NCBI RefSeq assembly: GCF_028281565.1
Contig: NZ_JANQJQ010000044.1
Location: 1 to 64,000, forward strand
Direction: 5' to 3'
DNA from: Seonamhaeicola sp.
Lineage (GTDB): Bacteria > Bacteroidota > Bacteroidia > Flavobacteriales > Flavobacteriaceae
Length of the DNA: 64,000 nt
Shown here: positions 6,691 to 16,219 of the stretch, piece after piece
Layout of the letters: each line of letters opens with the position of its first letter
Numbering within the stretch: position 1 is the first letter of the stretch
Program-made: the position numbers and the translations under genes
Notes under the pieces: generated by a model
What the model was told of the DNA's origin: nothing
Database searches by the model: none
What the model saw: only the letters and a program-made list of their open reading frames with translations

Positions 6691-8988
6691 TTACTCTTCT
6701 TCTTCTATTGTCGAAACAACAGTTGCCGGCTCAATAGAGTCGTCATGAGAATTATAATATTCTTCCAACAGATTCATGGTGGCCGTTAACAGGTCTTTTG
6801 TTTCCAATAAGATACCAAAGTATAAGGTTGTGTTTTTAGGACTGGATTCTTCCGTTCTGGTACGTTCAACCTGTTTCTGTATTTTTTCAGTTAAAAGATT
6901 GAAAACATCATGTTTTTTATGCAATACAGCACCAATTTCATTAAAAGAACCCGAATTGAAAGCATTTTTGGTATCGCTGAACAATACCTCAAAAGCATCA
7001 TCAATGTCTTTAAGCTCTTTTATCTGGCTGAATTTTAGCTTTTTATGATTGTTGTTTACATGTTTGTAACTTGAGTTTGATATATAAGCCAGTGATTGTG
7101 CCATATCTTGCAGGTACCTTAAAATACTCAGATAGAAATTACTGGCTTCAACACTTGGTTCGTCCAGGTTCTTAATGAAATAGAAAATATTGTCTTTTAA
7201 TTCTTCAATCTCATCTGTGAGTCTTTCTACCTGGCTTTTATTTTTCTTAAGCATTTTAAGATTGTGGGTGGCCAGACCATTTACGGCATTGGTATAAATT
7301 CTGTTACCCCGTTTTACAACGTTGGCTATGTTACTGGCACTTTCAACAATAACGCCTTGGGTAGAGCTGCTTTCAGCTTTTTGTAAAGTGTCTTCGGCCT
7401 TAAGTTCTTTTGTCTTTTTTCTGTGGCTCAAATAGTTTCTGACTAAAACAAGTAAAGCAAAAGCAATGAGTGCCACTAAGGCATAGCCTCTGCCACTGTA
7501 TAAAATTAATGCCATGATAGCAGCAGCCACAAAAGCACTTATAGCGGTAAAAAACCATCCGCCAATAACGTTAAGTACTCCGGCAACCCTGTATACAGCA
7601 CTTTCGCTTCCCCAGGCTCTGTCAGCTAAAGACGTACCCATAGCTACCATAAAGGTTACATACGTGGTAGATAAAGGTAATTTCATGGAGGTGGCTAATG
7701 ATATAAGAACACTTGCAACCATAAGGTTTACCGCGGCTCTAACCATATCGAAAGCAGGCATATCTTCCTTTTTAATGGCTGCAGACATAACAGGCTCTTT
7801 AAATTGCCTGGCAATGACACGCTTTGCCGAACCGGGTAATAAGTTGTTTACGCTTTCTGACGCGGCAATGGTCATTCTAACGATGCTTCTGGATAAAAAG
7901 TTGGGTTCAAAACGCTCTTTAACTTCATCCTGACGTGATAAGTCTACCGATGTTTTTACTACCGCTTTAGCTTTACTGGAGAACCATAAGGTTAAAACCA
8001 TTATCAAACCGGCAGCTAATAAAATGTAAGTAGGCGTCTGAATTTTATTTCCAAGACTTTCCATCGTAAACTGAGAGGCCGTTATACCGAGGGTGTCATG
8101 GGCCTGATTGAAATCCAGATAAGCCTGGTAAGCTCCGGTTGTAGGACCGATAAAGTTTACCAGATCATTGCCTGCAAAAGCGACAGCCAGGGCAAACGTT
8201 CCAATAACAATAATAATCTTATATATGTTGGTCTTCAGTAAAGTCATTAACATTAAAGAGGCCATGGTAAAAACTGCAAATCCGGCAGCCAGAACCATTT
8301 CGGTATTGCCTGATATTAAACTTTTTATGTCATCACTCATAAAAGTGGCATTCTTTATCCCTTTTATAAGAATGAAGTACATGATGGATGTTACCGCAAA
8401 ACCACTGAAAATGGCACCATAAAGCTTAGGTTTATCATTAAAATTGAATGATAGTAAAAGACGCGAAATATATTGAATAATAGCGCCTACAGAAAAGGCG
8501 ACTACAACCGAGAGCAATATACCCAGTATAATTTCTATCGCTTTCTCATTATTAATATAATTACCGATGTCTAATAAAGACAGGTCATTACTCATAGTAA
8601 TTTTGATAACAGCCATACATACTGAAGCTCCTAAAAGTTCAAAAACTATAGACACCGTGGTAGAGGTTGGCAACCCTAAGGTATTAAAGAAATCAAGTAG
8701 CAGGATATCGGTGATCATAACTGCCATGAAAATGATCATGATCTCATCAAATACAAATTCGCCCGGGACAAAGATGCCTTTCCTGGCAATTTCCATCATA
8801 CCGCTGGATGACATAGCTCCAAAAGCAACACCTATACTTGCAACAATCATTAAGGTTCTAAACGAAACTGCTTTAGAGCCGATAGCTGAGTTAAGGAAGT
8901 TTACGGCATCATTACTCACACCGACAACCAGATCTGCAATAGCCAGAACGGCCAGAGCAATAATCATAAAAGTATAAAGATTGTCCAT
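6691..8988 (-). CDS. Inorganic phosphate transporter, PiT family, with C-terminal PhoU-like domain
   Basis: Inner-membrane phosphate permease of 765 residues. Two PiT repeats carry the family signatures: GVSNDAVNFLNSAIGSKA near the N-terminus and FAGNDLVNFIGPTTGAYQAY near residue 270. About 12 hydrophobic segments are followed, after residue 530, by a cytoplasmic helical region (about 560-740) resembling PhoU/DUF47, which in other bacteria is a separate gene (pit accessory protein). The fused form is usual in Bacteroidota. The upstream region shared with the MORN gene has 11-bp-phased ATGTTA repeats at 9043-9070, just upstream of a weak -7 box (minus strand, 9023-9016), suggesting phosphate control. 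Confidence 0.94.
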   Translation of the reverse strand: MDNLYTFMIIALAVLAIADLVVGVSNDAVNFLNSAIGSKAVSFRTLMIVASIGVAFGAMSSSGMMEIARKGIFVPGEFVFDEIMIIFMAVMITDILLLDFFNTLGLPTSTTVSIVFELLGASVCMAVIKITMSNDLSLLDIGNYINNEKAIEIILGILLSVVVAFSVGAIIQYISRLLLSFNFNDKPKLYGAIFSGFAVTSIMYFILIKGIKNATFMSDDIKSLISGNTEMVLAAGFAVFTMASLMLMTLLKTNIYKIIIVIGTFALAVAFAGNDLVNFIGPTTGAYQAYLDFNQAHDTLGITASQFTMESLGNKIQTPTYILLAAGLIMVLTLWFSSKAKAVVKTSVDLSRQDEVKERFEPNFLSRSIVRMTIAASESVNNLLPGSAKRVIARQFKEPVMSAAIKKEDMPAFDMVRAAVNLMVASVLISLATSMKLPLSTTYVTFMVAMGTSLADRAWGSESAVYRVAGVLNVIGGWFFTAISAFVAAAIMALILYSGRGYALVALIAFALLVLVRNYLSHRKKTKELKAEDTLQKAESSSTQGVIVESASNIANVVKRGNRIYTNAVNGLATHNLKMLKKNKSQVERLTDEIEELKDNIFYFIKNLDEPSVEASNFYLSILRYLQDMAQSLAYISNSSYKHVNNNHKKLKFSQIKELKDIDDAFEVLFSDTKNAFNSGSFNEIGAVLHKKHDVFNLLTEKIQKQVERTRTEESSPKNTTLYFGILLETKDLLTATMNLLEEYYNSHDDSIEPATVVSTIEEEE

Positions 8989-9042
8989 CTAAAAGAAAAG
9001 GTAAATTTTAAAGAGCAAATGTCTTATTTTTAATTAAACCTA

Positions 9043-9070
9043 ATGTTACGAAAATGTTATGTTCTTTCAT
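9043..9070. promoter_or_regulatory. Candidate PhoB box upstream of the PiT gene
   Basis: ATGTTA at 9043 and 9054 (spacing exactly 11) followed by TTTCAT at 9065. For the PiT gene the array would span about -32 to -59 from a start site placed after a near-consensus -7 box (CAAATGTC, 9016-9023, read on the minus strand). An 11-bp phase is the known PhoB subsite spacing; binding is inferred. Confidence 0.5.
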
Positions 9071-9187
9071 GTTTTTAATAATGGATATACAACTATGAGT
9101 TGCGTTATTCAATTATTGCTTATGTTATTCGAATATTAATCATTTGTTAAATCATAAACAAATGAAAATCAATTATTTATAAATTTA

Positions 9188-9226
9188 ATGTTAAATTAAT
9201 GTTATGTAAATGTTGCTTGAATGTAA
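9188..9226 (+). promoter_or_regulatory. Candidate PhoB box upstream of the MORN-type gene
   Basis: Four units in exact 11-bp phase: ATGTTA (9188), ATGTTA (9199), ATGTTG (9210), ATGTAA (9221). The last unit ends 9 bp before the -7 box at 9236, the geometry expected for PhoB replacing a -33 element. Confidence 0.6.
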
Positions 9227-9243
9227 AATATTATTTATATTTG
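9213..9243 (+). promoter_or_regulatory. Promoter of the MORN-type gene
   Basis: TATATTTG at 9236-9243 matches the Bacteroidota -7 consensus TAnnTTTG. A TTG lies 20 bp upstream, at 9213-9215. The leader would be about 30 nt. Confidence 0.6.
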
Positions 9244-9277
9244 TTATAGAATTATTAATTAAAAACCCCCACATATT

Positions 9278-9622
9278 ATGAAAAAATATATCCTCATTTT
9301 AGCAGTTCTATTTATTGGAACATCAGTTTTTGCTCAAGATAATAATACAGTAAAACATGAAAAAAAGGGCGATCTGATTGAGACCACCTACTTTTATGCT
9401 AATGGCACCGTACAACAGCAAGGAACTTTTAACCAGGAAGGCAAATTACATGGTGTCTGGACCAGTTATGACGCCGAAGGTAACAGAATAGCTGTAGGGA
9501 ATTACGAAAACGGAAAAAAGGTAGGTAAATGGACATTTTGGGTGAATGGCGAAGCAAATGAAGTGGACTACGTAGATTCCAAAATTACCAAAGTCGTTAA
9601 AGCAAATAATGAAGGATCATAA
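9278..9622 (+). CDS. Secreted MORN/YwqK-type repeat protein
   Basis: Small exported protein of 114 residues. The signal peptide (cleavage after VFAQ, about residue 19) is followed by three MORN-like strands: YFYANGTVQQQGTFNQEG, GVWTSYDAEGNRIAVGNYENG and GKWTFWVNGE. Such proteins are widespread in Bacteroidota and their function is unknown. Databases sometimes call them YwqK antitoxin or nucleotidyltransferase, neither of which the sequence supports. It is divergent from the PiT gene and preceded by the phased repeats at 9188-9226, so a phosphate-starvation role is the best contextual guess. Confidence 0.82.
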   Translation: MKKYILILAVLFIGTSVFAQDNNTVKHEKKGDLIETTYFYANGTVQQQGTFNQEGKLHGVWTSYDAEGNRIAVGNYENGKKVGKWTFWVNGEANEVDYVDSKITKVVKANNEGS

Positions 9623-9645
9623 TCAAGTTTGATTAATTGAATAGT

Positions 9646-9676
9646 AAAAAAGCTCCCAAATCGGGAGCTTTTTTTT
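9646..9676. terminator. Bidirectional intrinsic terminator
   Basis: Stem AAAAAGCTCCC / GGGAGCTTTTT with a 5-nt loop and T-tract, between the convergent MORN-type and TonB receptor genes. Confidence 0.88.
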
Positions 9677-9695
9677 ATCTAAAATTTAAATGCTA

Positions 9696-12530
9696 TTAGA
9701 ATTTATAAGAGTATCCTAGAGAGAATTCTGTTCCAGGTTGTCTTAAAGAAAATACTCTGTCCTGAGTTCTGAACGACTCAAAAACACTTTCTCTTTCAGC
9801 ACCTAAAATGTTACTGACTTTAATATCTATTGAAGATCTTTTGTTTTCTCCAAGCGCTTTATTTAAAGTAAAGTTCAAGCTTTCAAATGGCTTGGTGAAT
9901 ACATCGGGAATACCTCCTAAACCTACAACTTCTAAAGTTCTTCCCTGCATATTGAAGAATAAACCGGTTTGTAAACCTATTTCAGGGTTCGTATAATTTA
10001 AACTTGTATTGATCAGGAAAGGTGCCTGTCCCTGCATGTCTCTTGTTCTTTCAATGGTTTCTCCATCCCTGGCGTTTGCAACCCTGGAATCAAACTCACC
10101 GTCAGACATAGTTAATTCAGATTTAGTATACGAAGCATTAAGTGAGAATTTTAAGTTTCTCAAGCCTTCAGTTAAAAAGCCTAAGTTTTGTCTGAATTCA
10201 ATTTCAGCTCCATAAACATCAGCGTCTCCTAAATTGTCAACCGTTAACTGTGTAGAAGCCTGAGCAAAGAATGCCTTTTCAATAGGGTCTTTAAATTGCT
10301 TATAAAAACCACTTATGGCAAACATTTGTCCTGCTTCACCAAAACGCTCAAACCTCAAGTCAAAGTTATTGACGTAAGTAGGCACTAAATTTATGTTACC
10401 AATAAATAATCTGTCGGTAATTGGATCATAAATTCTGGAGAAAGAAGCCTCCTTAAATGACGGACGTGCTGTGGTTCTATAGTATGACGTTCTGATATTG
10501 GACTCATCTGTTACAGCATAAATTAAATTTGCCGATGGGAATAAATCGAGCTCGTTTATTACTTCGTTACGTAAGTAATCCGTATTAGTACTATTATTTC
10601 TTCCGGTATAATATGATGTAAATGATTCTGCTCTTAAACCTAAAATGGTTTTAAGTTTTTCAGTTACATTAAATTCATTGGAAACATAAGTAGCACCAAT
10701 ATTTTGTTCACCTTCATAGGCATCGCCGGCATTGAATTGATCGGTTGAAACTAAGTTAGTACCATTAGCGTTATCTCTACTCCAAAGATTTTCGGGAGCT
10801 AAGAAATTATTCGGATTTCCGTCAGCAACGGTTTCATTGTTTTGAAAGGTCCAATCGTCAATACTAAAATCTCTGAACTTATAAGTATAGCCACCACCAA
10901 ATTTTACTTTAGCCGGTCTGCCACCTAATTCATATTTCTTACTGAAATCGAATTTTGAAGCCCAGTTTTCTTCCTGTAAGAACCTCCAAATACGGATTGG
11001 GAAGGTTGCAAAAGAAGGACTGATATCAAACTCACCCTCATCTGTTTCCTGTAAAGGCGTGATCTTATGGTCTTTATCATGCACTTTAGAGAATGTAGGG
11101 GATAATTTCCAGTCGAAACTCCATTCATTATCAGCTCCAAATTTATGATTACCGTTAATTAAAAGGTTAGATACAGAACGTTCTGTGTATGTAATGGCGT
11201 CTTTAGTAATGGGCTCTAAACCGGCACCGGAACCGGAACCACCACCGGCAACTACCTGATCAAAGAAACCACCGGCAGACTCACCATTTTGAATGTGCAA
11301 AAAGTTAACTTTGTATTTAGATTTTTGCGTTTTAAACGTTAATCCCGCTAAACCGTTTACCAACACATTATTAATACCTTCTCTACCTTCAGAAATTCTA
11401 TCGGCTAATAAGTTATTGTTTGATTTGTCAAGTGCGTCAATTGAGAAGGCACCGTCTACACGGTTTTCATAGAACGTCGTACTGTTTTTATATGAAAACA
11501 AGGCCATATAACCAAGTTTGTTATCACCAACTTCAAATTGATCTCCCATTGTAAAACCAAAGTCGAAATTGGGGTTACTGGTTTCTTCCTGCGCCCTTAA
11601 TTCCGGATCAAATCTTCCTGTAAGTGAGTTTAAAAGGTTTCTGTTATCAAAGGTTCCGGGAATAGGTTGATATCTGTTAATCGGCACATTTCTGGTGCCA
11701 TCGTCATACCCCCAGAAATCCGTATCACTACCCGATCCAATAAGGAAGTTATCTTTACCGTGCATATCCGGATTATATCCGGTACCTATTGAAACTGAAG
11801 CCTCAAATTTTGTTGGGAAATCTTTAGTTACAATATCAACCACACCCCCTGTAAAGTCAGCAGGGTATTCTGCAGCAGCAGATTTAACTACTATAATGTT
11901 ATCCAATATATTAGTAGGGAAGATATCCATTTGAATAGTGTTTCTGTCCGGATCTAAACCGGGAATATCAACACCATTTAAAGTTGATTTGGTATAACGG
12001 TCACCTAAACCTCTAACATAGACATATTTTCCTCCTTCTACAGAAACACCAGGCACACTTTTTACAGCACTTGCCAAGTTCCCTGCTCCACTGGATTTAA
12101 TACTTTGAGCCGATAACCCATCTAAAAGGGTAACAGACTTCTTTTGAATGTCTAATACTGCACTCTCAGTGTTCCTCTTAATACTGGTAGTAATTACAAC
12201 CTCATCTAATGAGTTTGAAGACAATGTAACGTCTAAATCCGTAACCTGTCCGGCTTTAATTACTACGTCACTGATTTCTTTGGTTTCGTAACCAACAAAA
12301 GAGAAGACTACAGTGTAAGTACCCGCATCTAACTCTAATTGATACTTACCGTCAAAATCAGACGTGGTACCGCTAGTAGTTCTTTTAATTAATATATTGG
12401 CAAACGCCATGGGTTCATTGTTGTATTCACCATCAAGAACATTTCCGGCCAAAATACCGGTTTGAGCATTGACGGTGCTAAAAAAAGAACCTAAAACAAA
12501 TAGTATAAAAACTATATAAATATTTTTCAT
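9696..12530 (-). CDS. TonB-dependent receptor with N-terminal CarboxypepD_reg-like domain
   Basis: Outer-membrane active transporter of 944 residues. In order: signal peptide (to about residue 23, NAQ), CarboxypepD_reg-like beta-sandwich (about 25-110), plug domain (about 125-240, with VPGVSVEGGKYVYVRGLGDRY and TGGVVDIVTKDFP), then a long beta-barrel ending in an aromatic C-terminus (SLGYSYKF). The ATG at 12530 is used; an upstream TTG is also in frame. No SusD partner follows. Instead the gene lies 205 bp downstream of a beta-helix lipoprotein that probably acts at the cell surface with it. Substrate unknown; the neighbouring PiT gene and phased Pho-box-like arrays point to phosphate or phospho-compounds. 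Confidence 0.93.
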   Translation of the reverse strand: MKNIYIVFILFVLGSFFSTVNAQTGILAGNVLDGEYNNEPMAFANILIKRTTSGTTSDFDGKYQLELDAGTYTVVFSFVGYETKEISDVVIKAGQVTDLDVTLSSNSLDEVVITTSIKRNTESAVLDIQKKSVTLLDGLSAQSIKSSGAGNLASAVKSVPGVSVEGGKYVYVRGLGDRYTKSTLNGVDIPGLDPDRNTIQMDIFPTNILDNIIVVKSAAAEYPADFTGGVVDIVTKDFPTKFEASVSIGTGYNPDMHGKDNFLIGSGSDTDFWGYDDGTRNVPINRYQPIPGTFDNRNLLNSLTGRFDPELRAQEETSNPNFDFGFTMGDQFEVGDNKLGYMALFSYKNSTTFYENRVDGAFSIDALDKSNNNLLADRISEGREGINNVLVNGLAGLTFKTQKSKYKVNFLHIQNGESAGGFFDQVVAGGGSGSGAGLEPITKDAITYTERSVSNLLINGNHKFGADNEWSFDWKLSPTFSKVHDKDHKITPLQETDEGEFDISPSFATFPIRIWRFLQEENWASKFDFSKKYELGGRPAKVKFGGGYTYKFRDFSIDDWTFQNNETVADGNPNNFLAPENLWSRDNANGTNLVSTDQFNAGDAYEGEQNIGATYVSNEFNVTEKLKTILGLRAESFTSYYTGRNNSTNTDYLRNEVINELDLFPSANLIYAVTDESNIRTSYYRTTARPSFKEASFSRIYDPITDRLFIGNINLVPTYVNNFDLRFERFGEAGQMFAISGFYKQFKDPIEKAFFAQASTQLTVDNLGDADVYGAEIEFRQNLGFLTEGLRNLKFSLNASYTKSELTMSDGEFDSRVANARDGETIERTRDMQGQAPFLINTSLNYTNPEIGLQTGLFFNMQGRTLEVVGLGGIPDVFTKPFESLNFTLNKALGENKRSSIDIKVSNILGAERESVFESFRTQDRVFSLRQPGTEFSLGYSYKF

Positions 12531-12679
12531 CAATTTTGAAATTTTTATTTTTCAATATCAAACAAATAAAAATTTAATGCTTTGATCAACCGCTTCGCTT
12601 TCGCACAAAAACTTTAATTATTTAGGTTGTAATTCAAAAAATTAAACTTGTTTGTTCTCATTTCATAATATAATTTGAA

Positions 12680-12714
12680 AACTACTGCTCACATATTAGC
12701 GAACAGTAGTATTT
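12680..12714 (-). terminator. Hairpin after the beta-helix lipoprotein gene
   Basis: Ten-base arms (12681-12690 and 12701-12710, one mismatch) with a 10-nt loop, followed on the minus strand by TTTTC. Possibly a partial terminator that lowers readthrough into the receptor gene. Confidence 0.5.
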
Positions 12715-12735
12715 TACATTTATTACAAAGTGTTT

Positions 12736-14061
12736 TTAGAATCCTAAACCACCTGCTTCATTGGCATAGGTCCAGCTTAAGTTAGCCGTATTAGCTCCAA
12801 CAGTTTGAGAACCTTCTGTAACTTGAGTCGTCCAGTCGGCAGCTCTTTCAGTAAAAGATGGGTTAAGGATAATTTTATCCTCATCTACATCGTTACTCTC
12901 ATCAGAATCATCGCAATTTTGAACGCAACCTACTTTTTCAACAAATATATTATTGTCAAACCCAACTACTTGCCAGTTAGAAAAAACAATGTTACCATCT
13001 AAGAAGTTTTGAGATACGCCGTTGTTATCTAACTCAACATCAGAACTGGCTTTAAAGCCTTTAGCGAACACATTAGAAGTGGTACCTGTAGCTTTACTTC
13101 TATAATCAGCATACTCCCCTTTAGAAGTATTTTCATTACCAATTAAAGTGACGTTAGTTAAAGTAAAAGATCCGGTAGCAGTTCCTTCTCTACCATCAAT
13201 TTCCAAGGCGTGGTCAGAAACATCACCTAACACTACTACAGCATTGTCAATAGTTCCGGAGTAAGCCTGGTCGATATCTAATCCGTCATCACCTTGCGCC
13301 CATACTAATAGGTTAGAAGCGTTTACAGTACCACCGAAGAACTCGATACCATCATCAACATTGGCAACAACTTCAACATTGTCAATAACAGTTTTGTTAC
13401 CTACACCTCCTAAAGTTAGTCCGTTAATTTCGTTTCCTTCTCCAATTAGAGCACCTCCGTGACGGATAGAAACATATTTTAAAACACCAGAATCATCATC
13501 AGCAACAGTTCCGCCATACAGGCCAAACGTATCATCTGCAGGAATGCCTTCAATTTGAATTTCAGTTAAATCCCCTTTTAAAGAACAAGGGGCATTACCA
13601 AGAATGATTAAACCACCCCAAAGCCCTCTGTTATTTTCATCTAAGTTTGTACCGGCAGTTTCACCTACGTCAATGTTGTCATCTTCAGACGTAAAGATAA
13701 TAGGGCTTTCGGCAGTACCTACTGCGTTTATTTTTCCACCTCTTGCTATGATTAAAGCAGAAGCCAAAGAACCTGTACCTCTGGTACCTTTAATAATAGT
13801 ACCCGGGTTGATGGTTAATGTAACACCGCTTTCTACAACAACCTTTTGGTTTAATTCATATATTTTATCGTTTGTCCACGTTACATCAGTGGTAAGAGCA
13901 CCAGTAACCGGAACAATTTGCGTTCCTCCAGGAGTATTAGTTCCTCCTCCTTCATTAATTATAGTTACTTCTTCTATAATTATAGGTGTGTCATCATCTT
14001 TAAAACATCCTGTAAATACTAAAGTAGATGCTATTAAAAGAGTTAAAAATATTTTTTTCAT
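12736..14061 (-). CDS. Surface lipoprotein with predicted right-handed beta-helix
   Basis: Protein of 441 residues exported as a lipoprotein (signal peptide ending in VFTGC, Cys19) followed by an Asp-rich linker (DDDTP) and a Gly/Thr/Pro tether typical of surface-exposed Bacteroidota lipoproteins. The body is built of short repeated strands with many Gly-Gly and Asn turns (VESGVTLTINPGTIIKG, AESPIIFTSEDDN, GIEFFGGTVNASN, GDDGLDIDQ), suggesting a right-handed beta-helix. A late insert has the two cysteines of VGCVQNCDDSDESND. No catalytic motif is recognised. It is encoded just upstream of the TonB receptor, and its promoter region carries the 11-bp-phased array 14121-14181. Likely a substrate-capture or phosphoester-processing partner of that receptor; this is inference. 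Confidence 0.8.
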   Translation of the reverse strand: MKKIFLTLLIASTLVFTGCFKDDDTPIIIEEVTIINEGGGTNTPGGTQIVPVTGALTTDVTWTNDKIYELNQKVVVESGVTLTINPGTIIKGTRGTGSLASALIIARGGKINAVGTAESPIIFTSEDDNIDVGETAGTNLDENNRGLWGGLIILGNAPCSLKGDLTEIQIEGIPADDTFGLYGGTVADDDSGVLKYVSIRHGGALIGEGNEINGLTLGGVGNKTVIDNVEVVANVDDGIEFFGGTVNASNLLVWAQGDDGLDIDQAYSGTIDNAVVVLGDVSDHALEIDGREGTATGSFTLTNVTLIGNENTSKGEYADYRSKATGTTSNVFAKGFKASSDVELDNNGVSQNFLDGNIVFSNWQVVGFDNNIFVEKVGCVQNCDDSDESNDVDEDKIILNPSFTERAADWTTQVTEGSQTVGANTANLSWTYANEAGGLGF

Positions 14062-14120
14062 CGTGTTTAAATTTTAGATAATTTTTTTAATCAGTTTTAT
14101 GCTGCAAAGAAATGCACATA

Positions 14121-14181
14121 ATGTAAATACCGTGTTACCTATAGATTAAAGAACGGTAATAAAAGAGTTATGCTAATGTTA
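14121..14181 (-). promoter_or_regulatory. Candidate PhoB box array upstream of the beta-helix lipoprotein gene
   Basis: Six positions in strict 11-bp phase: ATGTAA (14121), GTGTTA (14132), AGATTA (14143), CGGTAA (14154), GAGTTA (14165), ATGTTA (14176). The outer ones match nTGTTA well and the inner ones only partly. The array ends 8 bp from a near-consensus minus-strand -7 box (TTTCTTTG, 14112-14105). Confidence 0.45.
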
Positions 14182-14343
14182 TGAAAAGAAGGGCTTTTCG
14201 GGGCTTTAGAAACAATTTGTTAACATTTAAAGTATTTGTATTTCAAGACTTACAACTTTAACTTTTAACGCCAAATCATAACATATCATATTAAGGCCCT
14301 AAAAGTTTCATTTAGGGTTTTAGAAAGTAAAAATTAGCTAATA

Positions 14344-14733
14344 CTAATTAAGTGAAGTCGTTTGTTTAAGCACTTTCTCTTCAGACGGACTTTCAACAGA
14401 GGCGGTTTCGATCTGAGCCAGGGTAAATGCGTTTAATGACAATTTAATTTCCGTAGGATTTACAGAATCAACCTTTACATTAATCTCTTTAGTTTCATAA
14501 CCCGGAAAATTACAAACCAACGTGTAACTGCCGTCTTTTAGGTTTTCAAAAAGAAACATGCCTGAGACATCGGAAGTAGCATTAATAGATGTTCCTTTAA
14601 CTGAAACATTAGCAAATGCTAAAGGCGTATTGCCTAGTTCTTTATCTAGTACTTTACCAACAATTAAGCCTGTGTTTTGAGCAAAGGAAACCGAGACAAA
14701 TAAAAGAAAAAATAAAGCTAAAAAGTGTTTCAT
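14344..14733 (-). CDS. Stand-alone CarboxypepD_reg-like domain protein
   Basis: Secreted protein of 129 residues: signal peptide (MKHFLALFFLLFVSVSFAQ) then one CarboxypepD_reg-like domain (GKVLDKELGNTPLAFANV, TSDVSGMFLFENL, FPGYETKEINV). It aligns with the N-terminal domain of the TonB receptor at 9696-12530, sharing the LAFAN/MAFAN, TSD..G and GYETKEI elements, but has no plug or barrel. The start at 14733 is preferred because it begins a clean signal peptide; an upstream ATG at 14760 adds nine residues. It may modulate or dock with the receptor; function is not established. The 11-bp-phased array at 14785-14834 lies upstream. Confidence 0.82.
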   Translation of the reverse strand: MKHFLALFFLLFVSVSFAQNTGLIVGKVLDKELGNTPLAFANVSVKGTSINATSDVSGMFLFENLKDGSYTLVCNFPGYETKEINVKVDSVNPTEIKLSLNAFTLAQIETASVESPSEEKVLKQTTSLN

Positions 14734-14784
14734 TAGTTCAATGGAAATCAAGTGCTGCAAATTACCGACTTTATTCAGTTTTTA

Positions 14785-14834
14785 GTGTTACGTAATTGTT
14801 AATGGTATTTCATTTTTACGTTACCTTAATGTTA
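14785..14834. promoter_or_regulatory. Candidate PhoB box array between the CarboxypepD_reg gene and dgt
   Basis: Five units with exact 11-bp spacing: GTGTTA (14785), TTGTTA (14796), ATTTCA (14807), ACGTTA (14818), ATGTTA (14829). It is the longest clean array of the set. It may serve the minus-strand gene, dgt, or both. Confidence 0.55.
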
Positions 14835-14887
14835 AGAGATTTTGGGTTTTATTTTTATTGAATTTGGTTATCTTGCCGAGGCTTTAA

Positions 14888-16219
14888 ATGAATACTATGA
14901 ACTGGGAGCAATTACTTTCCTTAAAACGCTTTGGCGATACTAATAAAAGATTACGTAAAGAACAAGATGAAACCCGTGTTGGGTTTGAGGTTGACTATGA
15001 CAGGATCATCTTTTCATCACAGTTTAGAAGCCTGCAAGATAAAACGCAGGTGATTCCTTTGTCGCAAACCGATTTTGTTCATACCCGCCTGACACACAGT
15101 TTAGAGGTGAGCGTTGTAGGACGTTCTTTAGGACGTAAGGTCGGACAAAAAATTTTAGAAAAATATCCGCATCTTAGAGAAGTTCACGGGTATCAGGTAA
15201 ATGATTTTGGAGCTATAGTAGCTGCGGCAGCTTTGGCGCATGACATTGGAAACCCACCGTTTGGACACTCAGGGGAAAAAGCCATTGGTGAGTTTTTTAA
15301 AACGGGTGATGGTTTAACATATAAAGAGCACCTAACAGATAAAGAATACCAGGATCTATGTGATTTTGAAGGAAATGCCAACGGGTTTAGGATTATTACT
15401 GAAAACAAACTCCGATTAAGCTATGCTACTTTGGGAACTTTTATGAAATACCCAAAGGAATCATTGCCCAAAAAACCTACCAGCCATATTGCCGATAAAA
15501 AATATGGGTTTTTTCAATCGGACAAAGAGACGTTTGAAAACGTGGCGCAAGATTTAGGTTTGTTAAAGCGAAGTGAAAGTTACCTTAGTTTTTCAAGACA
15601 TCCATTGGCTTTTTTAGTAGAGGCCGCTGATGATATTTGTTACACGATTATCGACTTTGAAGATGGGATTAATCTGGGGCTTATACAAGAAGAGTTTGCA
15701 TTAGAGTATTTATCTAAAATAATCAGGGATAAAATTATACCTGAAAATTATTATGCGTTGTCTAATAAACAGGATAGGATTGGCTATTTACGCGCTTTGG
15801 CTATTGGAACACTTATTGACGAAGCGGTAGATATCTTCATGAAGTATGAAGAAGCCATTTTAGATGGTACTTTTGATTGTGCCCTGTTGGATAAAAGTAA
15901 ATATGAAGCCCAAATAAAGGATATTATAAAGATCAGTGTTGAGAATATTTATCAGTCTGAAGAGGTCATTGATAAAGAGATTTCAGGATATCAGATCATC
16001 AATAAATTGCTGGGTATATATACTGGTGCCGTAAATAATAATTTTAACGGAACCGCTTCAAATTATGATAGACTTATTTTAAAACGATTACCCAAGACCA
16101 TTAATTTTTCAAGCGACCATTTATATGACCGGTTATTAGCCGTTTGTCATTATGTATCATTGTTGTCTGACAGCAAGGCTATTTTAAACTTTAAAACTAT
16201 TGAAGGTGTGACTTTTTAG
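14888..16219 (+). CDS. dgt: Deoxyguanosinetriphosphate triphosphohydrolase (HD domain)
   Basis: Cytoplasmic dNTPase of 443 residues that splits dGTP (or other dNTPs) to nucleoside and triphosphate. HD-domain metal ligands are visible: His in FVHTRLTHSLEV, the HD pair in LAHDIGNPPFGHSGE, and a later Asp in EAADDICYTIIDFEDG. The FSSQFRSLQDKTQV segment is typical of Dgt. A second ATG nine bases downstream is an alternative start. The stop overlaps the convergent dxs stop by 4 bp. Its promoter region is shared with the phased array 14785-14834, but a phosphate link for dgt is not established. Confidence 0.93.
   Translation: MNTMNWEQLLSLKRFGDTNKRLRKEQDETRVGFEVDYDRIIFSSQFRSLQDKTQVIPLSQTDFVHTRLTHSLEVSVVGRSLGRKVGQKILEKYPHLREVHGYQVNDFGAIVAAAALAHDIGNPPFGHSGEKAIGEFFKTGDGLTYKEHLTDKEYQDLCDFEGNANGFRIITENKLRLSYATLGTFMKYPKESLPKKPTSHIADKKYGFFQSDKETFENVAQDLGLLKRSESYLSFSRHPLAFLVEAADDICYTIIDFEDGINLGLIQEEFALEYLSKIIRDKIIPENYYALSNKQDRIGYLRALAIGTLIDEAVDIFMKYEEAILDGTFDCALLDKSKYEAQIKDIIKISVENIYQSEEVIDKEISGYQIINKLLGIYTGAVNNNFNGTASNYDRLILKRLPKTINFSSDHLYDRLLAVCHYVSLLSDSKAILNFKTIEGVTF

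Follow-up and report, generated by a model that had tools for sequence, protein, structure and literature searches.

Which genes, and which regulator, are served by the four arrays of short repeats at 11-bp steps that surround a phosphate transporter gene in a 64-kb stretch of Seonamhaeicola sp. DNA (hereafter the window; the own genome is 5.27 Mb)? The original prediction had read these repeats, in three intergenic regions around a PiT-type transporter, as nTGTTA hexamers forming PhoB boxes. The analysis confirmed the long arrays as real, non-chance features: they are phased, stand in a fixed register with the -7 box, take an orientation that follows the class of gene and accompany two distinct kinds of promoter. 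Judged from the sequences as a whole, they are quite probably PhoB operators, with one class of genes activated at low phosphate and a small MORN gene repressed. The original prediction was partly supported, having had the right general idea on the wrong strand. The genes concerned are listed below.

6691..8988, minus strand: PiT-type phosphate transporter (PHO4, PF01384; domain match)
9278..9622, plus strand: small MORN_2 protein (MORN; domain match), with a start that by eye resembles a signal peptide
9696..12533, minus strand: TonB-dependent receptor (TBDR; matches to CarbopepD_reg_2, Plug and beta-barrel domains)
12736..14061, minus strand: conserved lipoprotein-like protein without Pfam match, named beta-helix-like lipoprotein (BHEL; compare FI/FII in PMC8115612)
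14344..14727, minus strand: stand-alone CarboxypepD_reg-like protein (CPREG), its ATG picked within the listed open reading frame 14344-14760
14888..16219, plus strand: HD-domain protein, read here as dGTPase-like (domain match)

Arrays in the window

The four arrays are as follows.

9044..9059, minus strand: PiT array, two units that read TAACA on the minus strand, at distances of 24 and 35 bp upstream of the -7 TTTG
9178..9226, plus strand: reversed array of the MORN promoter, its unit being TGTTA in the direction of the gene, with positions 9178 (TATAA), 9189, 9200, 9211 (TGTTG) and 9222 (TGTAA)
14122..14181, minus strand: array of the BHEL/TonB-receptor operon, six phased units reading, from proximal to distal, TTACA, TAACA, TAATC, TTACC, TAACT and TAACA
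14786..14834, minus strand: CPREG array, with units 24, 35, 57 and 68 bp before the -7 box

A phased scan of the window recovered all four predicted arrays with their 11-bp steps. On the plus strand, four-unit runs (17 or more of 20 letters matching TGTTA) started only at 9178, 9189, 14786 and 14797, and five-unit runs (at least 20 of 25 matches) only at 9178, 9189, 14133 and 14786. The minus strand of the window held no four- or five-unit TGTTA run at 11-bp steps under the same thresholds, and the other steps from 7 to 21 bp gave 0-1 runs at the four-unit threshold when both strands of the window were pooled. Runs of four or five units were thus confined to the reported regions, in agreement with the impression that no similar arrays occur elsewhere in the window. 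The arrays also exceeded random expectation, a check that the earlier work had proposed: the window holds three five-unit clusters, each within the reported intergenic regions, whereas 200 dinucleotide shuffles of the whole window averaged 0.005 and none of them reached three. Shuffling just the three intergenic regions gave the same outcome, the observed five-unit clusters being reached in 0 of 2000 trials. Three-unit clusters are weak evidence, as 12 of 200 whole-window shuffles reached the observed two. The own genome contains 37 exact TGTTA-N6-TGTTA pairs (reversed control, 16), of which three fall within this 6-kb stretch; at the 30 of these 37 sites that were inspected, no five-unit array was found outside the window, and the only ones were those of its three loci.

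The PiT-side array had been described as 9043-9059 followed by TTTCAT. Two good units stood (9044-9059), whereas the in-phase TTTCAT next to them is not a unit in the consensus of the relatives. A further three-unit 11-bp run (TGTTA, TATTA and TGTTA at 9124, 9135 and 9146, spanning 9124-9150) lies between the PiT and MORN arrays; it was rejected as an element, since chance alone yields about 0.4 three-unit runs per window and this one is unremarkable in the relatives' MORN upstream consensus.

Strand, spacing and promoter type

The TonB-receptor operon stands the other way round in three Aquimarina loci, and its array has turned with it; therefore the unit in gene sense is TTAACA, and TGTTA is its complementary strand. 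The co-inversion of operon and array, together with minus-strand -7 boxes at fixed spacing, assigns three of the arrays to PiT, the BHEL/TonB operon and CPREG. For these three of the four arrays the nTGTTA sense was the wrong strand, and the plus-strand -7 boxes that had been proposed at the arrays held only for the MORN promoter, where the array is reversed.

Comparison with 80 PiT loci of relatives, mostly Flavobacteriaceae, revealed at least one array in 64 of them at the thresholds used. A census of these loci counted 121 five-unit arrays, of which 65 were forward (TBDR 30, CPREG 21, BHEL 11, PiT 3) and 50 stood at MORN, all of them reversed; the labelled neighbour was another gene or none at the remaining six. 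At two of the MORN arrays the forward side also faced an unlabelled gene, and a dGTPase gene also lay on the far side of 14 forward arrays. The conservation period was 10.5-11.5 bp for CPREG, TBDR, BHEL and MORN, and 13 bp for PiT, which has two units only.

The distance to the -7 box was equally regular. At PiT, BHEL and CPREG of the window, the distance from TAACA to the -7 TTTG is exactly 24 bp, and relatives showed the same 24 bp in 58 of 79 PiT and 19 of 27 CPREG upstream regions. At TBDR the spacing was 24 bp in 19 and 57 bp in 20 of 82 upstream regions, the TBDR label taking in many paralogues and second genes. When the best TTTG upstream was taken, 73 of the 79 PiT genes in the 80 loci matched the array-TTTG arrangement in at least 8 of 10 letters. 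The exact pattern TAACA-N6-TAACA-N24-TTTG had two matches in the own genome, at PiT and CPREG (reversed control, 0), and TAAC-N29-TAAC-N25-TTTGC also had two, at BHEL and CPREG (reversed control, 1). In four genomes of the same genus the latter pattern had eight matches against three reversed controls, and seven of the eight may be read, from their sequence and spacing, as the same promoters. Across 199 genomes of the family, the former pattern gave 146 matches in 113 genomes against 27 with the reversed pattern; with the spacing shifted from N24 to N19, only 21 matches in 20 genomes were left, against 36 in the corresponding reversed control. Thirty of the 146 matches were inspected, and 18 were PiT promoters while 12 had another or no labelled gene downstream.

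At MORN, the relatives showed TGTTA-N35-TTTG in 49 and TGTTA-N46-TTTG in 50 of 68 upstream regions, spacings that place this array in the same 11-bp phase as the forward arrays, on the opposite strand. The exact pattern TGTTA-N6-TGTTA-N35-TTTG matched once in the own genome and 93 times, in 85 genomes, among the 199 of the family, against 34 controls. Inspection of 30 of the 93 identified 25 MORN promoters, and the gene divergent to MORN was porin-like in 12 of these, PiT in eight, and other or unlabelled in five. The MORN_2 gene recurs adjoining PiT or a porin-like gene, and its promoter is among the best conserved in this analysis. In many relatives a conserved AAAATCA block (window 9167-9171) also occurs about 68 bp before the MORN -7 box, in the 11-bp register of the array.

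Among 241 probable promoters of Flavobacterium johnsoniae, the -7 box almost always has T at -12 and A at -11 (PMC6847099). The promoter elements of the window compare with this as follows.

9016..9023, minus strand: PiT promoter -7 element GACATTTG, consensus T at -12 missing
14105..14112, minus strand: BHEL/TonB operon -7 element TTTCTTTG, no TA
14758..14765, minus strand: CPREG promoter -7 element GTAATTTG, no TA at -12/-11
9236..9243, plus strand: MORN promoter consensus -7 element TATATTTG, TA present
9213..9215, plus strand: -33-like TTG of the MORN promoter, inside unit 9211 and 20 bp before -7

The same division was found in the relatives. Among 145 forward-array promoters, the TA pair occurred once (PiT 1 of 73, CPREG 0 of 15, TBDR 0 of 40, BHEL 0 of 17) and a TTG 18-21 bp upstream of the -7 box never, while the reversed-array MORN promoters had TA in 48 of 48 and TTG at that distance in 44 of 48. 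These counts exclude genes without a qualifying array (PiT 6 of 79, CPREG 8 of 23, TBDR 41 of 81, BHEL 44 of 61, MORN 20 of 68), and neither TA nor TTG played a part in placing the anchor. In the set picked by DNA pattern alone, TA was present in 1 of 18 PiT versus 25 of 25 MORN promoters, and TTG in 0 of 18 versus 19 of 25; at the PiT promoters of this set the A was mostly kept and G replaced the T of the pair. At the -33 position of MORN, the array unit itself reads TGTTG rather than TGTTA.

PhoB as the candidate regulator

The own genome encodes five Trans_reg_C proteins. The best candidate is a PhoB-like protein of 226 amino acids, whose gene is followed by that of a PhoR-like kinase; a PhoB relative was detected at an E value of 1e-60 or better in 57 of 60 family genomes. 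A comparable array immediately upstream was seen at phoB, in the form of a reversed TGTTA pair, and at none of the other four regulator genes. Promoters were located at 31 phoB loci (28 of 30 fetched, and three of Aquimarina), and 20 had a [TC]GTTA-N6-[TC]GTTA pair, with a TAT[ACT]TTT[AG] box 42-46 bp downstream in 18 cases; this distance is less tightly kept than that at MORN. In two Aquimarina loci (L114, 10407-11208; L123, 10412-11218) a response-regulator gene directly follows PiT with a reversed array between them; the L114 regulator scores best as PhoB, and a third Aquimarina locus (L103) has the same gene with the reversed pair.

With regard to control by Pst and PhoU, PhoU (PF01895) was not found in any of seven genomes of the genus (it was present in 7 of the 25 genomes searched overall), and PstS (PF12849) gave a single match in the own genome, below the Pfam cut-off; no search aimed at PstC, PstA or PstB was made. 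The PstS-like match lies at C30:194345-194794 (L247), in an open frame of 310 amino acids. Since the genus yielded no PhoU, its Pho regulon probably centres on the PiT island. Seven PhoU loci of relatives were fetched, and arrays were present at four (L144, L145, L147, L148), where six of the eight array-bearing promoters inspected were in register, a count that leaves out a flagged run at L148 4335-4372.

As a type of element PhoB boxes are already known, and sequence features that mark them were found together at this locus: two or more direct-repeat units at 11-bp steps; a position and orientation fixed relative to the promoter of the downstream genes, with a shifted-spacing control; a site at phosphate-acquisition genes (PiT in the window, pst loci in relatives); a PhoB-PhoR-like pair encoded in the genome (best NCBIfam match PhoB, under the cut-off); and a unit that agrees with the published PhoP motif TTTAACA (PMC9603813) without being identical to E. 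coli CTGTCAT. The motif comes from DNA affinity purification sequencing of Riemerella anatipestifer PhoP, in which TTTAACA were the most conserved nucleotides, and electrophoretic mobility shift assays showed binding upstream of phoPR and of a TonB receptor (PMC9603813). The likeness to the present system therefore covers the core motif, an autoregulatory site upstream of the regulator's own operon and a bound TonB-receptor promoter; the analysis of phased arrays and -7 spacing described here has no counterpart in the portion of PMC9603813 that was available.

Similar boxes are known from more distant bacteria. The cyanobacterial SphR Pho boxes (CTTAACCT, 8 bp with a 3-bp linker; PMC1906773) share the TTAAC core, the 11-bp period and three or more tandem units, although phylum, promoter type and targets differ. 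The E. coli PhoB box, made of CTGTCAT direct repeats in 11-bp units (PMC4415409, which also treats Streptomyces boxes), is alike in placing tandem 11-bp repeats just upstream of phosphate-uptake promoters. In contrast to E. coli, the present unit is TTAACA, a conserved unit lies 24 bp before the -7 TTTG, and the promoter is of the Bacteroidetes type. Alignment by eye of CTGTCAT with TTAACAT gives a common nTnnCAT in the same orientation. In Bacillus subtilis, PhoP boxes read TT[A/T/C]ACA with a period of about 11 bp and are placed in reverse at the repressed tag genes. This resembles the TTAACA unit and the reversed arrangement described here at a promoter that is predicted to be repressed, although the B. 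subtilis targets are teichoic-acid genes and the present one encodes a small MORN protein.

Expression data from two Bacteroidetes bear indirectly on genes of these kinds. Under phosphate depletion of F. johnsoniae, the TonB receptor/lipoprotein pairs Fjoh_0545/0546 (beside phoBR) and Fjoh_3857/3856 were strongly induced, and PhoB had a fold change of 3.06, apparently as log2 (Table 1, PMC8115612). The TBDR/BHEL pair resembles PUSIII and PUSIV of that species, in which a TonB receptor is paired with a lipoprotein (FI/FII), the proteins being likened by description and not by sequence (PMC8115612); the main text of that paper, in the portion available, gives no DNA motif or binding site for PUSIII/PUSIV. 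For Bacteroides fragilis, a phoB mutant at low phosphate was set against the wild type at high phosphate: BF3715, a putative phosphate/sulphate permease, was down 52-fold, and pstS, pstC, pstA and pstB were down 103- to 542-fold (PMC3547664). Neither the flavobacterial promoter grammar nor the reversed MORN operator was found in the open-licence literature searched, as far as its text was available, and the open-licence papers searched for MORN held nothing relevant.

On this basis, phosphorylated PhoB would bind head to tail along the tandem TTAACA units, one every 11 bp. The forward promoters have neither TA nor a -33 TTG, so PhoB probably substitutes there for the -33 contact, recruiting RNA polymerase when phosphate is scarce; that PhoB binds the arrays and activates the forward class (PiT, BHEL/TonB, CPREG) at low phosphate is very likely. 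At MORN, PhoB bound to the reversed array, over a full -33/-7 promoter, would most likely block transcription, so that MORN would be made when phosphate is plentiful; repression of MORN is the slightly favoured outcome. The part of the original prediction that placed PhoB boxes around a phosphate island is very probably right, given the six of eight pst-locus promoters in register, the PhoB/PhoR-like operon and the TTTAACA motif (PMC9603813), while its strand and promoters did not stand. More tentatively, the orientation of the PhoB operator might set the sign of regulation across Flavobacteriaceae: forward on promoters lacking TA and the -33 element, it would mark PhoB-dependent uptake genes, and reversed on a complete, housekeeping-type promoter, with one unit (TGTTG) serving as the -33, a conserved, PhoB-repressed, secreted MORN protein.

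The main alternative is that all arrays activate, so that reversed PhoB would still switch on MORN and the whole divergent island would be induced at low phosphate. It derives this place from phoB, which is induced by phosphate depletion in F. johnsoniae (PMC8115612) and, in the promoters of other genomes, also has a reversed pair upstream; in 20 of the 25 pattern-picked loci, moreover, the gene divergent to MORN is PiT (8) or porin-like (12). This reading is nevertheless rather unlikely, as the MORN promoter, with its full -7 and -33-like TTG, needs no activator and is covered by the array, unlike those of the forward classes. That the 9178-9226 array is mainly a distal forward operator of PiT, lying near MORN by accident, is improbable. 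It does read TTAACA towards PiT, and on that strand a TTTG of the window lies 26 bp beyond it, but no TTTG is conserved 24-26 bp away on the PiT side in 67 aligned sites, and a PiT-directed promoter from this array was rejected for want of a conserved TTTG at the right distance. PiT also owns its separate two-unit array, and the distance to the MORN -7 box is fixed (49 of 68 for TGTTA-N35-TTTG) even where the PiT or porin-like start lies about 265-400 bp away.

Binding by another response regulator of the OmpR/PhoB family is very improbable, even though tandem sites are common to that whole family and this genome has five Trans_reg_C proteins: the arrays accompany phosphate genes, in relatives they sit at pst-locus promoters, phoB alone among the five regulator genes has such an array just upstream, and TTTAACA is the published flavobacterial PhoP motif (PMC9603813). 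That the arrays arose by chance, or represent AT-rich structural DNA that no regulator binds, has a negligible probability. The regions are AT-rich and the genome holds 37 exact TGTTA-N6-TGTTA pairs (16 in the reversed control), but the shuffles, the fixed -7 spacing with its shifted-spacing control and an orientation that follows the gene refute chance for the long arrays.

Several observations weigh against PhoB control as outlined here. No array was found at the thresholds used in 16 of the 80 PiT loci, the exact TAACA-N6-TAACA-N24-TTTG pattern was lacking in 86 of the 199 family genomes, and orthologous promoters are non-independent samples. When one mismatch at most was allowed, the own genome gave 11 matches (the two exact ones included) against six controls, so that no wider regulon is visible there, phosphatase promoters not having been searched; a wider regulon defined by this search was rejected. 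Several promoters in the more distant loci L147 and L148 carry TA, and the crippled -7 element is consequently not universal. The best NCBIfam match of the regulator is PhoB, at 220 of 296 and 209 of 270 bits, below the equivalog cut-offs, and R. anatipestifer PhoP is likened to this PhoB by motif; of its 50 direct targets 34 were reported as repressed and 16 as activated (PMC9603813). Three of the seven PhoU loci had no array (L143 and L146 stop short of the pst promoter, and L149 is not a pst locus), and two of the eight promoters inspected at the others were out of register (L145 pstS and L147 porin-pst). The F. johnsoniae table of phosphorus-acquisition loci, in the available portion of PMC8115612, lists no PiT, and in wild-type B. 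fragilis BF3715 was unchanged at low phosphate, its authors regarding it as PhoB-dependent and unrelated to the phosphate response (PMC3547664). Finally, among 51 dGTPase upstream regions, 22 of which have a TTTG in range, five reached the reversed-array threshold, all without TA.

The proposed grammar of PhoB promoters in Flavobacteriaceae (TTAACA units, 11-bp steps, 24 bp to a TA-less -7 box) is precise and searchable, and would allow phosphate-starvation genes to be predicted from sequence, also in genomes where PhoU is not found. The system also lends itself to a clean test of the idea that the orientation of the operator is by itself enough to decide between activation and repression.

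Neighbouring genes

The dGTPase-like gene on the plus strand was rejected as one that the 14786-14834 array might serve: in the window its TTTGs are out of register with the array, the spacing is unconserved, and the array follows the gene on its other side. It is kept as an unlikely target because of the five relatives' regions that reach the reversed-array threshold (L058, L067, L068, L071 and L078), four of which have ACAATTTG in common.

For BHEL (12736-14061), none of 14 members had a Pfam match and no PDB sequence match was obtained, so its beta-helix fold remains inferred. CPREG resembles the N-terminal extension of a TonB receptor, has a PhoB-type promoter of its own and recurs beside the TonB-receptor operons of relatives.

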